Source: Parcubacteria group bacterium GW2011_GWA2_49_9
GTDB taxonomy: Bacteria; Patescibacteriota; Minisyncoccia; Phycocordibacterales; UBA10002
Direction: 5' to 3'
NCBI GenBank assembly: GCA_001004005.1
Contig: LCQF01000008.1
Location: forward strand, 1-39,619
Length of the DNA stretch: 39,619 nt
The position numbers and the translations under genes were made by a program. The notes under the pieces are model-generated. The model did not search any database. It was given only the letters and a program-made list of their open reading frames with translations, and had not been told where the DNA came from. Shown in pieces: positions 9,718-37,510 of the stretch (positions are counted from its first letter, which is position 1; every line of letters starts with the position of its first letter).

Positions 9718-10759
9718 TTAGCACCCCTTTATACGCGTCAAAATCTTCAAGAATAATCCCCGCGCCACGCGCGACCGCGGTCATCGGGTCGTCGGCCTGA
9801 TGAACCGGAATCTTGAGACTTTCCGCGAGGAGTTCGGGAAGACCCATAATAAGCGCCCCACCTCCGACAAGGTAGAGTCCGCGCCCCATAACGTCGGATA
9901 CGATTTCGGGAGGAGTGGTTTCAAGCACTTCCTTGACGGCTTCTATGAGATTATCAATGGAAAGCGCGATGGCTTCACGTACATCGGTATCGGAAACCAT
10001 AACTTCGCGCGGAAGTCCCGTGATAAGGTCGCGTCCTTTTATCATAGCCTCAAGCGCGGAGCCTTGCGGGAGTACCGAGCCAATGGCAATTTTGAGATTT
10101 TCCGCGGTCTTTTCTCCGATAAGGATTTTAAATTCACCCCGAACGTACGAAATAATATCTTCATTTAGTTTGTCTCCCGCGATTTTCAAGCTCTTTGACC
10201 GAACGATGCCTCCGAGCGAAATGACGGCGATATCGGATGTTCCCCCACCGATGTCCACAATCATATTCCCCACGGGGTCGTTTACCGGAAGCCGGATACC
10301 GATAGCCGCGGCCATCGGTTCTTCCACGATAAACACCGTGCGCGCTCCATTATTCTTTGTCGCGTCACGCACGGCGCGCGTTTCCACATTGGTGATACCT
10401 GACGGCACGCCGACGACAACGCGCGGTCCGAGGAATTTCTTGGAATTCAGTTCCGCGCGCCGAATGAGGTACGCGAGCATCTCTTCGGTCACTTCAAAAT
10501 CGGATACAACACCACCGACCAACGGCTTCACGGCAGCGATATGCGGAGGCGTCCGCCCGAGCATCTCTTTCGCCTGCGCGCCAACCGCCACCACCTGTCC
10601 GGTTTTCTGATTGACGGCAACGACGGAAGGCTCGTTGATAACAATGCCCTGTCCCCGCATATATACGAGCGTGTTCGCGGTACCGAGGTCAATACCGATA
10701 TCGTTGGAGAGATAGCCGTTCATCCGGTCCCAGTGTTTTTTGAAGTGTTTTCGGAGCAT
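9683..10759 (-). CDS. mreB: Rod shape-determining protein MreB (copy 1)
   Basis: DIGIDLGTANTLVYMRGQGIVINEPSVVAVN...VDIGGGTSDIAVISLGGIV. Confidence 0.97.
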   Translation of the reverse strand: MLRKHFKKHWDRMNGYLSNDIGIDLGTANTLVYMRGQGIVINEPSVVAVNQKTGQVVAVGAQAKEMLGRTPPHIAAVKPLVGGVVSDFEVTEEMLAYLIRRAELNSKKFLGPRVVVGVPSGITNVETRAVRDATKNNGARTVFIVEEPMAAAIGIRLPVNDPVGNMIVDIGGGTSDIAVISLGGIVRSKSLKIAGDKLNEDIISYVRGEFKILIGEKTAENLKIAIGSVLPQGSALEAMIKGRDLITGLPREVMVSDTDVREAIALSIDNLIEAVKEVLETTPPEIVSDVMGRGLYLVGGGALIMGLPELLAESLKIPVHQADDPMTAVARGAGIILEDFDAYKGVLIENEDELPPHS

Positions 10760-10852: not shown

Positions 10853-10894
10853 CATTTTAGCATGTAAGCACGGCCGTGCTTACATGCTAAAATG
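10853..10894. repeat. 42-bp perfect palindrome, left flank of Cas2-like gene
   Basis: cattttagcatgtaagcacggccgtgcttacatgctaaaatg; shares a 36-bp core with 11508..11549. Confidence 0.97.
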
Positions 10895-11507: not shown

Positions 11508-11549
11508 CGATTTAGCATGTAAGCACGGCCGTGCTTACATGCTAAATCG
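11508..11549. repeat. 42-bp perfect palindrome, right flank of Cas2-like gene
   Basis: cgatttagcatgtaagcacggccgtgcttacatgctaaatcg. Confidence 0.97.
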
Positions 11550-12822: not shown

Positions 12823-12835
12823 GGATTTTATCCGA

Positions 12836-12941
12836 TTCCTCCTTTCTTAAAGGAGATGACGCATTCCGATGCGACGGAGGATTTTGAAATCCCTCCTGCA
12901 CAAGAATGCAGTGCTCCCTTTAGGAAAGGGAGAATTAAGAC
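12836..12941. repeat. Composite CCTCC/GGAGG palindromic repeat
   Basis: cctcctttcttaaaggag...gcattccgatgc...ctccctttaggaaagggag. Confidence 0.75.
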
Positions 12942-15024: not shown

Positions 15025-16191
15025 CTAAAACAATTTAACAATATCCCGATAGGTGATGAACAACATAAACGCAATCAGCAGGAAAAAACCGGCGGTGTTG
15101 ACGAACCGTGTAAACTTCACCGGAATCGGGCGGCGGATGATGCCCTCAATCGCAAGAAACAGGAGGCGTCCGCCGTCGAGCGCCGGAATCGGGAGCAGGT
15201 TAATGACCGCGAGGTTGATGGAAATAAACGCGGTAAATGAGAGAAGATACACAAAGCCGAGCACGCGTGCCTCGCCGACAAGCCCCGCGATACCCACCGG
15301 ACCCGAAATGGAACCGAGGTCCGCTTGTCCCATCACCGCCTCCTTAATAAAGCCGAGCAGTCCGTAGGTTACCTCACGAAGAATATCCCACGTGGTAAGT
15401 GCTCCCTCATAGAACGCACGGAAGATGTTGAAACGGACGACGCCAATCGTATCAAGACTCACGCCAATGGCCGGCTTCCCCGCCACGATACCGCGCACCG
15501 GTTCCACTTGAGCGGTATAGTCCGTTTCTTCGCGCGTATATTCAATAGTGAGAATACCTTTGCTTTCGCCGATAAATTCGCGCGCGGGTTCTGATTCGGA
15601 ACCCGAGAAGACACGCGTCCCGTCGGTAAGTGAGTGAACGACATCTCCGCTTTTGAGCCCCGCCTTCCCCGCGGGAGAATCGGGAAGTACCGTCGCAATG
15701 GTCAATTTCGGATTCTGCACCTCGCTCGCGTATCTGCCGTCAACGGATGACGGAATACCGGACATAAAGCTTATGGAAATAAGGAGCCACGCGAAAATAA
15801 TATTTCCGAGTATACCGGAAACCAATACGAGGGCTTGAATCCATCGTGATTTGGAGGTGAAGCGGCGATTAAAATCCTCCGGCTCATCAGAATGAGCCAC
15901 CTCCTTTTGTAAAGGAGGAATGGAAGACGCTACCACCCCTCTATCCCCTCCTTGGAAAGGAGGGGAGGAAGAATCGTCACCGTCCTCGCCGAATATCTTC
16001 ACGTACCCGCCAAATGGGATGAGGTTGAGGTCGTACTGTGTTTCTCCGAACTTTTTCCCGTATATCTTGGGCGGAAAGCCAATCGCAAAGGCATCAACGC
16101 GAATCCCCGCTTTTTTCGCGGAGATAAAGTGGCCGAGCTCGTGCACGAAGACGAGAGCGCCGAGGATGATGAAAAATAAGACAATAGTCAT
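15025..16191 (-). CDS. rseP: RIP metalloprotease RseP (site-2 protease, M50)
   Basis: HELGHF, GGYVKIFGE, PDZ region, NLLPIPALDGGR; contains repeat-derived in-frame insertion. Confidence 0.95.
   Translation of the reverse strand: MTIVLFFIILGALVFVHELGHFISAKKAGIRVDAFAIGFPPKIYGKKFGETQYDLNLIPFGGYVKIFGEDGDDSSSPPFQGGDRGVVASSIPPLQKEVAHSDEPEDFNRRFTSKSRWIQALVLVSGILGNIIFAWLLISISFMSGIPSSVDGRYASEVQNPKLTIATVLPDSPAGKAGLKSGDVVHSLTDGTRVFSGSESEPAREFIGESKGILTIEYTREETDYTAQVEPVRGIVAGKPAIGVSLDTIGVVRFNIFRAFYEGALTTWDILREVTYGLLGFIKEAVMGQADLGSISGPVGIAGLVGEARVLGFVYLLSFTAFISINLAVINLLPIPALDGGRLLFLAIEGIIRRPIPVKFTRFVNTAGFFLLIAFMLFITYRDIVKLF
15871..15970. repeat. CCTCC/GGAGG palindromic repeat inside rseP
   Basis: cctccggctcatcagaatgagccacctccttttgtaaaggagg...cccctccttggaaaggagggg. 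Confidence 0.8.
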
Positions 16192-17883: not shown

Positions 17884-17990
17884 TTAATTCTCCCTTTCTT
17901 AAAGGGAGTGGCGAGTCGGCGAGCCGAGGGATTTTAAATCCTCCGATTCATCAGAATGAACCACCTCCTTTAGAAAAGGAGGAATAAGAA
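17884..17990. repeat. CCTCC/GGAGG composite palindromic repeat
   Basis: ctccctttcttaaagggag...cctccgattcatcagaatgaaccacctcctttagaaaaggagg. Confidence 0.8.
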
Positions 17991-17993
17991 CTG

Positions 17994-19019
17994 CTACCGC
18001 TTCGCAATAATGGTTTTCTTATACGTATCCAAATGTTCAAGCGCGATACCCGTGCCCTTCGCCACGCAAAAGTAGGCGTCTTTCGCGAGTGTCGCTTTTA
18101 CGCCCGTCCGGCGGAACACCAATTCGGGAAAATTGCGGAGCTGGGACGAACCGCCGGTCATAATAATGCCGCGGTCAATGATATCGGCGGATAGTTCAGG
18201 CGGAGTTTCCTGAAGAACATCTTTAAGCGCCTTGATAACCTCGCGCAGTTCCCTGCTGATGGCCCTCACAATCTCGTTGGTCTTTACCTCGGCGGTACGC
18301 GGAAGTCCCGTGACGAAATCACGCCCTTTGATGATGATAGACAATTCTTCTTCAAGCGGCACGGCGGAACCGATTTCCAGTTTGATATCCTCCGCCATTT
18401 TGTCTCCGATGCCGAGATTAAATGTTTTTTTGATGTAATCCGCGATGGCGGCGTCAATGCGGTTCCCCGCGCATTTCACGGATGTGGAAGAAACAATGCC
18501 TCCGAGTGAAATGACCGCGACGTCGGTTGTGCCTCCGCCGATGTCCACCACCATATGTCCCGCTGGTTCGTGAATGGGAATACCGGCACCGATGGCGGCA
18601 AGAATCGGTTCTTTCACGACATAGGCATTTTTCGCTCCGGCCTTAATCGCCGCTTCCACCACGGCGCGACGTTCAGTTGAGGTCACGCCGGCGGGAACGG
18701 AAAGCAGAACTTCGGGTTTCCAGATATTCCATTTGCCGAGCGCTTTCGTGATGAAATAGCGGAGCATCGCCTCGGTCACACGGTAATCGGCAATCACACC
18801 GTCCTTCATCGGGCGATACGCAACGATGGATTCGGGCGTCTTCCCCACCATATTTTTCGCGTCAATGCCGACGGCAAGAATGCGGTTGTCCTGCTCGGAG
18901 ACCGCCACCACCGACGGCTCATTCAGCACGATACCTTTCCCCGGCACGAACACGAGCGTATTCGCGGTCCCGAGGTCAATGCCGAGTTTGGGGGTCCAGA
19001 ATGACATAAATAAAACCAA
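17994..19019 (-). CDS. mreB: MreB-family rod shape protein (copy 2)
   Basis: KLGIDLGTANTLVFVPGKGIVLNEPSVVAVS...VVDIGGGTTDVAVISLGGIV. Confidence 0.96.
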   Translation of the reverse strand: MVLFMSFWTPKLGIDLGTANTLVFVPGKGIVLNEPSVVAVSEQDNRILAVGIDAKNMVGKTPESIVAYRPMKDGVIADYRVTEAMLRYFITKALGKWNIWKPEVLLSVPAGVTSTERRAVVEAAIKAGAKNAYVVKEPILAAIGAGIPIHEPAGHMVVDIGGGTTDVAVISLGGIVSSTSVKCAGNRIDAAIADYIKKTFNLGIGDKMAEDIKLEIGSAVPLEEELSIIIKGRDFVTGLPRTAEVKTNEIVRAISRELREVIKALKDVLQETPPELSADIIDRGIIMTGGSSQLRNFPELVFRRTGVKATLAKDAYFCVAKGTGIALEHLDTYKKTIIAKR

Positions 19020-19067: not shown

Positions 19068-19162
19068 GTCTCCCTCCCCTCCTTTCCAAGGAGGGGATTG
19101 AGGGGTGGTAAGATTGATATGTACCCCCTCTCATATCTCCCCCTTAGAAGGGGGAGAGGTTC
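19068..19162. repeat. CCTCC/GGAGG palindromic repeats
   Basis: cccctcctttccaaggagggg and ctcccccttagaagggggag. Confidence 0.7.
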
Positions 19163-23894: not shown

Positions 23895-24839
23895 ATGAAA
23901 TTCGTCTTCTTCGGGACACCCGAACTTTCCGTGGACATACTGGAAACGCTAAAGCGGCACGGCCTTGTGCCGTCCGTTATCGTCACGAACCCTGACCGAC
24001 CGCAGGGACGGAAAATGGTGCTGACTCCCCCACCCGTCAAACTCTGGGCGCTCGCCAACAACATTCCGTGCCTCCAACCCGAATCTCCGTCCGGCCCTGA
24101 CTTTCTCTATAAACTACAAACTATAAACTACAAACTTTTCATCGTCGTGGCGTATGGCTCTCTCCTCCCGAAAGAGCTACTCGCTATTCCCGAAAAAGGT
24201 AGTTTGAACATCCACTATTCCCTGCTCCCGAAATATCGGGGGGCTTCGCCGATAGAATCGCAAATCCTCGCGGATGACAAAGACGCGGGGGTCTCGATAC
24301 TTCTCCTAGATGAAGAAATGGACCACGGACCAACTGTTGCGAAGCAGCAATTGGAAATCCAAAATCCCACTGTCCAAATTCCAAACAAGTCGAACCATCA
24401 AAATATCAACATATCAAAATATCAAAATGATTCTCTGCTTTGGCCACCAAAGGCGAGTGAATTGCGGAGTGCGATGAACACGCTCGCGGGGGAAATGCTG
24501 GCGGAGGTTATGCCGAAATGGGTGGAGGGAAAGATTGAGGCAAAACCACAAGACCACTCCAAGGCGACGTATACAAAGAAATTCAAAAAGGCGGATGGAG
24601 AAATTAATTTAGCGGATGATGGTTATAAAAATTATTTGAAGATTCAAGCGTTTGAGAGTTCCATCGGCACCTTCTTCTTCACCTCCCCTCCTTTCCAAGG
24701 AGGGGATAAGAGGGGTGGTAGGATTCGCGTCATCATCAAATCTGCCGAGTTCCGAGACGGTAACCTAATCCTCACCCGTGTCGTGCCGGAAGGGAAAAAG
24801 GAAATGAGCTATGAGGAATTTCAGCGGGGTATGAAATAA
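23895..24839 (+). CDS. fmt: Methionyl-tRNA formyltransferase
   Basis: MKFVFFGTPELSVDILETL, LLPKYRGASPIESQIL, WPPKASELR; contains repeat-derived insertions. Confidence 0.95.
   Translation: MKFVFFGTPELSVDILETLKRHGLVPSVIVTNPDRPQGRKMVLTPPPVKLWALANNIPCLQPESPSGPDFLYKLQTINYKLFIVVAYGSLLPKELLAIPEKGSLNIHYSLLPKYRGASPIESQILADDKDAGVSILLLDEEMDHGPTVAKQQLEIQNPTVQIPNKSNHQNINISKYQNDSLLWPPKASELRSAMNTLAGEMLAEVMPKWVEGKIEAKPQDHSKATYTKKFKKADGEINLADDGYKNYLKIQAFESSIGTFFFTSPPFQGGDKRGGRIRVIIKSAEFRDGNLILTRVVPEGKKEMSYEEFQRGMK
24680..24722. repeat. CCTCC/GGAGG palindromic repeat inside fmt
   Basis: cacctcccctcctttccaaggaggggataagaggggtggta. Confidence 0.8.
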
Positions 24840-25611: not shown

Positions 25612-25794
25612 CTGTCTGTCTCCTGATTTCCGATACGTTGCGTCATTATGTAAATGAGCCTGTTTATAGCGTTGTTTTCGTCACGGCTGTGACGGTTCAT
25701 ACATCCTCGGCGGAAGCCGAGAACAAAACACACTAACGTATCTAGCCTCTCTATAACATATTTTGAGGAGATGCGCAAGATATATGGGGATTCA

Positions 25795-25934
25795 TTCTCC
25801 CTTTTCTAAAGGGAGCACTGCATTCTTATGCAGGAGGGATTTATCCCCCTTAGTAAAGGGGGCGAGGGGGTTGTTTAAATCTTCCACCTCGGAAGACCTC
25901 GGCACCTCCTTTAGGAAAGGAGGAATAAGAACTA
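25795..25934. repeat. CCTCC/GGAGG composite palindromic repeat
   Basis: ctcccttttctaaagggag...cccccttagtaaaggggg...cctcctttaggaaaggagg. Confidence 0.8.
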
Positions 25935-27121: not shown

Positions 27122-27192
27122 TGTCATTCCCGCGGAGGCGGGAATCTAGAAATAATGACCTATCCTGGATTCCCGCCTCCGCGGGAATGACA
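27122..27192. repeat. 25-bp inverted repeat, TGTCATTCCCGCGGAGGCGGGAATC type
   Basis: tgtcattcccgcggaggcgggaatc ... gattcccgcctccgcgggaatgaca. Confidence 0.95.
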
Positions 27193-32056: not shown

Positions 32057-32071
32057 ACTATTGGAAGTGAG

Positions 32072-32110
32072 GCAAGGCTCAACCTTACTTTAGGTAAGGT
32101 TGAGCCTTGC
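32072..32110. repeat. REP-like hairpin, left flank of RAYT gene
   Basis: gcaaggctcaaccttac tttag gtaaggttgagccttgc. Confidence 0.95.
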
Positions 32111-32138
32111 ATTTTATTTGATATACTACTTTCTATCT

Positions 32139-32858
32139 ATGTCAAGAAAAATAATTTTTGCTGAAAATGAATTCTATCACCTCTACAACCGCGGGGTTGA
32201 TAAAAGAATTGTATTTGAAAATGAATGGGACTACAAGCGTTTTATTCTGCTTTTATACCTCTGCAATGGAAAGATACCAGTTCGTTTTGAAGATTTACCA
32301 AATTGGAAAAGTGGAAAATTTGAGGAACTCGCTAAAACGGTATTTGCCGAAAGAATCGACTCTCCAATTATCGCCATCGGGGCATATTGTCTTATGCCGA
32401 ATCACTTCCATTTGCTCATACGCGAAATCTCCGAAAAGGGCGTTAGCACATTCATGCACAGACTTTCAACTGCCTACACTATGTATTTCAATGAGAGCCG
32501 TAAGAGAACTGGATCCTTATTTCAAGGCAGATTCAAAGCCGAACACGCTGATACTGATATGTATCTCAAATATCTATTTTCGTATATTCATCTCAATCCA
32601 ATAAAACTGGTAGAGCCGAAATGGAAGGAGTTCGGGATTGTCGACAGGCAAAGAGTTAAAAGATTCCTATTCGCCTATCAATACTCAAGTCTTCCAGATT
32701 ATTCCGGCACAACGCGAGAATGTTCAAAAATTTTGAACAAAAAGGAATTCCCGGATTATTTCTCAACAAAAAAAGATGTTGAGCGTCATATTGATGATTG
32801 GCTTATTTACAAGAAGTACAGTAGCTGCGTAGGCAAGGCTCAACCTTACCCAAAGTAA
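32139..32858 (+). CDS. REP-associated tyrosine transposase (RAYT, Y1_Tnp family)
   Basis: FYHLYNRGVDKRIVF, IGAYCLMPNHFHLLIRE (HxH), YTMYFNESRKRTGSLFQGRFKAEH, YIHLNPIK. Confidence 0.95.
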   Translation: MSRKIIFAENEFYHLYNRGVDKRIVFENEWDYKRFILLLYLCNGKIPVRFEDLPNWKSGKFEELAKTVFAERIDSPIIAIGAYCLMPNHFHLLIREISEKGVSTFMHRLSTAYTMYFNESRKRTGSLFQGRFKAEHADTDMYLKYLFSYIHLNPIKLVEPKWKEFGIVDRQRVKRFLFAYQYSSLPDYSGTTRECSKILNKKEFPDYFSTKKDVERHIDDWLIYKKYSSCVGKAQPYPK

Positions 32859-32873
32859 GGTTGAGCCTTGCCT
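32831..32873. repeat. REP-like hairpin, right flank of RAYT gene (inverted copy)
   Basis: aggcaaggctcaaccttac ccaaa gtaaggttgagccttgcct. Confidence 0.95.
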
Positions 32874-34021: not shown

Positions 34022-34126
34022 ATTCTCCCTTTCTTAAAGGGAGTGACTCATTCTTATGAGGCGAGGGATTTAAAATTTTTCAACTCGCAGACTCGCCACC
34101 TCCTTTACTAAAGGAGGAATAAGAGC
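34022..34126. repeat. CCTCC/GGAGG composite palindromic repeat
   Basis: ctccctttcttaaagggag...cacctcctttactaaaggagg. Confidence 0.8.
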
Positions 34127-37336: not shown

Positions 37337-37410
37337 AGATATAGGTCTAGAGAATAGCAAAAACCAGCGAAATTGACGAGGGGGGCGTCAGCAACGAGGA
37401 TAAGGGGGTT

Positions 37411-37510
37411 CTCCCTTTCCTAAAGGAAGCACTCCGACGTGACGTCGGAGGAGGGATTTAAATCCTCTGCCCTCGCAGACTCGGGCACCTCCTTTAACAA
37501 AGGAGGAATA
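37411..37510. repeat. CCTCC/GGAGG composite palindromic repeat
   Basis: ctccctttcctaaaggaag...cgacgtgacgtcg...cacctcctttaacaaaggagg. Confidence 0.75.

Follow-up and report, generated by a model that had tools for sequence, protein, structure and literature searches.

The window, by which we mean the whole 39,619-nt stretch of DNA analysed here, is contig 8 of a 0.91 Mb draft genome (G000; 44 contigs, about 92% complete). Its minus strand carries rseP at positions 15025-16191, coding for a 388-aa RIP metalloprotease of the M50 type (Pfam M50, E 6e-60; NCBIfam RseP equivalog TIGR00054, above cut-off). Inside this gene, the in-frame stretch 15872-15972 consists of two adjacent dispersed palindromic repeats: a family A element on the plus strand at 15872-15921 (minus-strand reading IPPLQKEVAHSDEPEDF; nhmmer 49.4 bits, among 152 genome matches) and a family B element, likewise on the plus strand, at 15931-15972 (minus-strand reading SSSPPFQGGDRGVV; nhmmer 51.7 bits, among 48 genome matches). 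Together they code for the loop residues DSSSPPFQGGDRGVVASSIPPLQKEVAHSDEPEDFNRR, approximately residues 74-110 of the protein, and a predicted example of a host-insert junction peptide is IFGEDGDDSSSPPFQGGDR. A preliminary description of this DNA had given the peptide and its coordinates correctly and had rightly noted that no stop codon interrupts the segment. It had also attributed the segment to two hairpins; hairpins do encode it, but there are three of them, two in the family A element (15881-15898 and 15900-15918; DNA fold -14 kcal/mol, z -6) and one in the family B element (15944-15966, folding as a single DNA hairpin).

The repeat DNA in rseP measures 101 bp, whereas RseP gains 23 residues (69 bp) over that of the sister species G002, with which it shares 75% identity. 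Because the repeats are longer than the net gain, part of an older variable loop was lost or overwritten. The stretch is thus in frame and repeat-derived, as had been described, but it is not a simple insertion; a comparison with relatives indicates that a short variable loop was replaced. AlphaFold2 assigns a pLDDT below 50 to residues 73-102 within an otherwise mostly confident model (mean 81), and the resulting Pro/Ser/Gly/Arg-rich loop, which from knowledge of the RseP family we take to lie on the cytosolic side, is probably disordered.

The nearest RseP relatives come from metagenome-assembled genomes named Candidatus Taylorbacteria, Candidatus Nomurabacteria and Parcubacteria group, which places the organism in the Patescibacteria (Candidate Phyla Radiation). 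Loop length varies across the order. In G002, G001, G004 and G008 the loop is short and lacks the insert peptide; homologues without the repeat are thus also without the peptide, and the repeat origin of this segment withstood the alignment. The same loop of G009 RseP contains a unit from another family A subfamily (nhmmer E 3e-6), which adjoins a different repeat of GCGGAT type, and that of G003 contains a weaker A/B-like hairpin (E 0.002). The GCGGAT-type dispersed repeat (GCGGATAAACGCGGAT, peptide ADKRGL-INAD) lies in frame in the RseP loop of G007, G009 and G010, and in G007 and G010 it is the only repeat there. A tree of RseP computed without the loop groups G000 with G002 (91/92) and G009 with G007 (100/99), so that the A-type insert requires either three separate gains or one gain followed by many losses. 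The loop sequences point to related repeats having entered the same site independently in the two other species, G009 and G003.

Families A and B are abundant throughout the genome. nhmmer returned 152 matches for family A (about 150 copies) and 48 for family B, and there are about 234 hairpin sites of A/B type. The genome contains 63 occurrences of the hairpin motif CCTCCTTN{2,8}AAGGAGG, eight of them within the window; neither dinucleotide shuffles of the window nor a reversed control pattern gave a single hit, which upholds the earlier recognition of a hairpin repeat family. A family A unit is laid out as AAATCC(Y)n, hairpin 1, a Y-rich arm-TTT, a short loop, an AAA-R-rich arm and GAAT, usually followed by (T)AAGA. 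Its copies end in GAAT(T)AAGA, with mirror-image ends in doublets, a feature of interest for comparison with MITEs, which have terminal inverted repeats and a target-site duplication. Of 36 pairs of neighbouring family A units, 30 have a head-to-head arrangement and measure about 85-150 bp overall. A hairpin 1 stem of at least 5 bp is found in 61% of copies compared with 16% of shuffles, and its 54 distinct stem sequences indicate that pairing is kept while the sequence varies. The Y-rich tract in front of hairpin 1 tends to repeat the hairpin 2 arm, the commonest tract/arm combinations being CCCC with CCCC, CTCC with CTCC, and TCCC with TCCT or TCCC; the tract could therefore pair alternatively with the 3′ arm. 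Family B follows the layout CTACCACCCCTC-n-CCCCTCCTTGGAAAGGAGGGGAGG. Some of its copies also possess a first hairpin, which suggests that it is related to family A. We rejected a strong intrinsic coding design, since family A is just slightly more stop-free than its shuffles (3.78 versus 3.52 open frames of six), family B more clearly so (4.97 versus 4.02). Searches of phage and plasmid records returned no match to the insert.

Two further genes of the window host such repeats in frame. A family A copy lies on the minus strand at 1442-1491 in rsmH/mraW (ORF 949-1878, minus; peptide KIPPAEDGSAPFYKGRI), which is 42 bp longer here than in the comparator G007, Parcubacteria GW2011_GWC2_48_17. A family B copy on the minus strand at 24682-24720 lies in an fmt-like formyltransferase gene (ORF 23895-24836, plus; peptide TSPPFQGGDKRGGR; 24 bp longer than in G007). 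Head-to-head family A doublets occur at 12835-12935 (REPIN-like) and 17887-17985, both outside called ORFs, as well as at 25794-25926 (with a 35-bp spacer), 34022-34120 and 37409-37509, and a single family B copy on the minus strand at 19069-19110 is also outside called ORFs.

For a survey on the genome scale, 413 G007 proteins were chained onto G000 DNA as ungapped HSPs in any frame and without gene calling in the target. An insertion was counted if it had at least 24 bp and consisted to at least 40% of dispersed repeat, defined by at least three other copies. This yielded 56 repeat-derived insertions in the 413 comparable genes, a count that depends on one reference relative with a median identity of 67%. 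Fifty-two of them are in frame without a stop, two contain a stop and two shift the frame; the length is a multiple of three in 54. At most one third would be expected in frame by chance (binomial p about 1e-20). The 52 in-frame insertions fall into about 44 of the 413 genes (about 10%), or 43 ORFs or loci when assigned to the target sequence, and the claim that the rseP repeat is a coding-tolerant dispersed one is borne out by about 40 further conserved genes that contain members of these families in frame. Insert lengths range from 24 to 306 bp, and the sequence differs among copies. With respect to gene sense, in-frame insertions of family A are oriented 15 same and 13 opposite and those of family B three same and five opposite; both orientations and five of the six frames are read. 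Compositionally, the inserts show an excess of P, S, G and R and a deficit of M, Y, I and W. The density of repeats falls from 8.9% outside conserved genes to 2.6% within them; a further tally assigned 76 of the 200 repeats to greedy ORFs, which include spurious ones, and the main count is not based on it.

The reverse comparison found nine repeat-derived insertions in G007 (excess in G000, p about 1e-9), whereas non-repeat insertions were similarly frequent in the two directions (32 and 53). For G001, 366 kb containing 204 genes yielded a single repeat-derived insertion, although its repeat mask was built from less sequence and may hide some. Since its genome contains 33 hairpins of A/B type, heavy invasion of genes does not follow automatically from the presence of the repeats.

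The host genes are largely core, single-copy genes with unrelated functions, as judged from their annotation and copy number. They include those for ThrRS, GMP synthase (GuaA), IMP dehydrogenase (GuaB), MurB, MurC and MurD, UvrC, NAD-dependent DNA ligase (LigA), DNA polymerase I (PolA), RecO and a DinB-type polymerase, and for a cysteine desulfurase, a thioredoxin reductase, an M24 peptidase, a Dus family enzyme, a beta-CASP ribonuclease and a ClpB/ClpX-like AAA protein. Each of 42 hosts is encoded by one gene copy only, and identity to the congener is 0.684 for hosts versus 0.694 for non-hosts (p 0.69). As a separate observation, three G007 genes (C6:11777-15577, C4:37231-40638 and C19:445-2616) contain insertions of 657, 432 and 368 aa relative to their G000 orthologues, which start with C or S, end in HN or SN and look like inteins.

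Depletion in genes, maintenance of the frame, insertion in any orientation and the loop-like composition together fit selfish elements under purifying selection. We consider it highly probable that families A and B are REP/REPIN-like palindromic elements which, filtered by selection, persist in genes as in-frame inserts coding for disordered loops. Small non-autonomous palindromic elements of both families would have spread genome-wide in both orientations and several frames, and two copies would have come to replace part of a variable, cytosolic RseP loop that connects the re-entrant beta region to the transmembrane helix following it. Copies that broke genes would have been removed by purifying selection, and those retained would be the ones with a net length divisible by three, no stop and a tolerant loop as landing site, where the hairpin DNA would be transcribed and translated into a probably disordered segment without a required function. 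That the inserts are translated as extra protein loops is the most likely outcome judging by their frames, and they are presumably neutral. The mobility of both families is suggested by their dispersal and lineage-specific presence. With the nearest relative sharing only 75% protein identity, the comparison yielded neither an exact empty site nor a target-site duplication.

Strong hairpins within an open frame could also be removed after transcription, by self-excising RNA, ribosome hopping or proteolysis, so that the host protein is restored, and ribosomes are known to bypass hairpin elements in other systems. Removal from or bypass on the mRNA would relax selection on frame and stop codons, yet among the 56 insertions the length is divisible by three in 54 and a stop is absent from 52, and no Rfam family matched in the window. 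Frame maintenance therefore speaks against removal from the mRNA, while removal at the protein level is compatible with the frame data; taken as a whole, we regard post-transcriptional removal as very improbable. Even less credit is due to an assembly or binning artefact, in which repeat-induced misjoins would have placed hairpin sequence into genes. A 44-contig draft with short dispersed repeats can indeed mislead assemblers, but the inserts vary in length and in sequence from one another and yet mostly keep the reading frame, for which misjoins give no reason. Moreover, the independently assembled G009 has its family A unit in the very same RseP loop, and in-frame family A or related units are present in RseP of G003 and in another gene of G001.

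The recurrence in RseP might alternatively reflect domestication, with inserts conferring a function on their host proteins, or a targeted hotspot in the loop. According to the tree and the loop sequences, A/B-related units would have been gained there three times separately (G000, G009 and G003), and the presence of the GCGGAT-type repeat in three relatives adds to this impression. However, the hosts are functionally unrelated, many frames and both orientations are used and sister species do without the inserts, which argues against domestication; as the length of the RseP loop varies across the order, tolerance alone would explain why it was hit repeatedly. Domestication or targeting is accordingly a slim prospect in our estimation, and selection-filtered persistence of REP/REPIN-like elements is the reading we carry forward.

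Protein genes of Rickettsia, Wolbachia and Methanocaldococcus are known to contain in-frame palindromes, those of Rickettsia being the Rickettsia palindromic elements (RPEs; PMC2229807). Like families A and B, the palindromes of these three genera are dispersed, inserted in frame in conserved genes and also intergenic, and their hosts stay open (PMC2229807). A and B are shorter, with units of 42-50 nt and doublets of about 100 bp, they reside in a different phylum, and their 52 in-frame insertions exceed the 19 reading frames in which RPEs were first reported (PMC2229807). Seven insert peptides had no match at E <= 1 in NCBIfam, a library that may not hold RPE models. The comparison with RPEs made in the preliminary description is apt as an analogy, while membership in RPE goes beyond the evidence. 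REPs tagged with GTAG or CGTC are described inside ORFs of several species, often in DNA repair and tRNA genes (PMC3733652); they resemble A and B in being intragenic and predominantly head-to-head dimers, and their hosts likewise include uvr genes, DNA polymerase I, DNA ligase and tRNA synthetases. In the passages of this source considered here, the bacteria named as having GTAG repeats are Proteobacteria, Cyanobacteria, Chloroflexi and the PVC group, a list from which Patescibacteria are absent. Near the ends of family A, GTAG was found in 0 and CGTC in 1 of 100 copies, and 21 of 23 family B copies have CTAC, the reverse complement of GTAG, at the 5′ end. We therefore rejected an assignment to the GTAG/CGTC superfamily, as family A ends lack the tag and family B has the reverse complement only.

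A and B share with REPINs and their RAYTs (PMC3116915) the inverted REP doublets, variable stems, hairpins and the presence of Y1 transposase genes in the genome, and they are dispersed high-copy short palindromes whose stem pairing is kept. Unlike REPINs, which are described as extragenic (PMC3116915), they are often intragenic, no RAYT is flanked by them and their copy number does not track Y1 genes. The most fitting classification is as a new REP-like group of coding-tolerant palindromes in Patescibacteria that would work like RPEs, and the best reading of our comparison is an RPE phenomenon in this phylum on an unusually large scale. In the open-licence literature, we found no paper on repeats in Taylorbacteria or on repetitive extragenic palindromic elements in Patescibacteria, and for protein insertions in Parcubacteria a general review only.

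Mobilisation by a RAYT was rejected. None of the three Y1 transposase genes is flanked by A or B copies, the nearest being 801, 1431 and 1462 bp away (random median 2067), Y1_Tnp and hairpin counts do not correspond across 99 genomes, and G012 and G089 have 17 and 12 hairpins but no Y1 match. A mobiliser that recognises structure, unlike RAYT/REPIN pairs, and spreads two-hairpin elements might have led to a recent flooding of one Patescibacteria lineage. We view this possibility as rather doubtful; if true, it would account for stems that are nearly free in sequence with pairing kept, and for element-coded loops in about a tenth of comparable conserved proteins. A Y1 (RAYT-like) transposase ORF in the window (32100-32858, plus) lies between 41-nt inverted repeats at 32070-32110 and 32833-32873, which are 98% complementary, each palindromic and rare in the genome, their core 15-mer having four genome matches with both strands counted. 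This arrangement resembles the transposases flanked by terminal inverted repeats (TIRtrons) described in PMC3733652.

Discussion of protein-coding palindromes has centred on Rickettsia, other organisms contributing scattered REP cases. Here a single small Patescibacteria genome amounts to a natural experiment with dozens of insertions into essential proteins, for which congeners that lack the inserts serve as controls. It thereby becomes testable where proteins tolerate insertions of 10-50 residues and how selfish repeats turn into protein sequence. Caution is also called for when proteins of such genomes are searched for homologues or modelled, since element-coded segments are included.

The window contains additional repeats. 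A 36-nt perfect palindrome, TTTAGCATGTAAGCACGGCCGTGCTTACATGCTAAA, is present in two identical copies 619 nt apart (10856-10891 and 11511-11546), and its half sequence has seven genome matches with both strands counted. The inverted repeat TGTCATTCCCGCGGAGGCGGGAATCTAG at 27122-27192 is part of another dispersed family (TCATTCCCGC, 33 genome matches), from which the peptides CHSRESGNPESD and AGVQKGKKGEGALDSRLRGND inside conserved proteins probably derive. Finally, the 86-nt stretches 10613-10698 and 18900-18985 are 74% identical and probably belong to paralogous genes.
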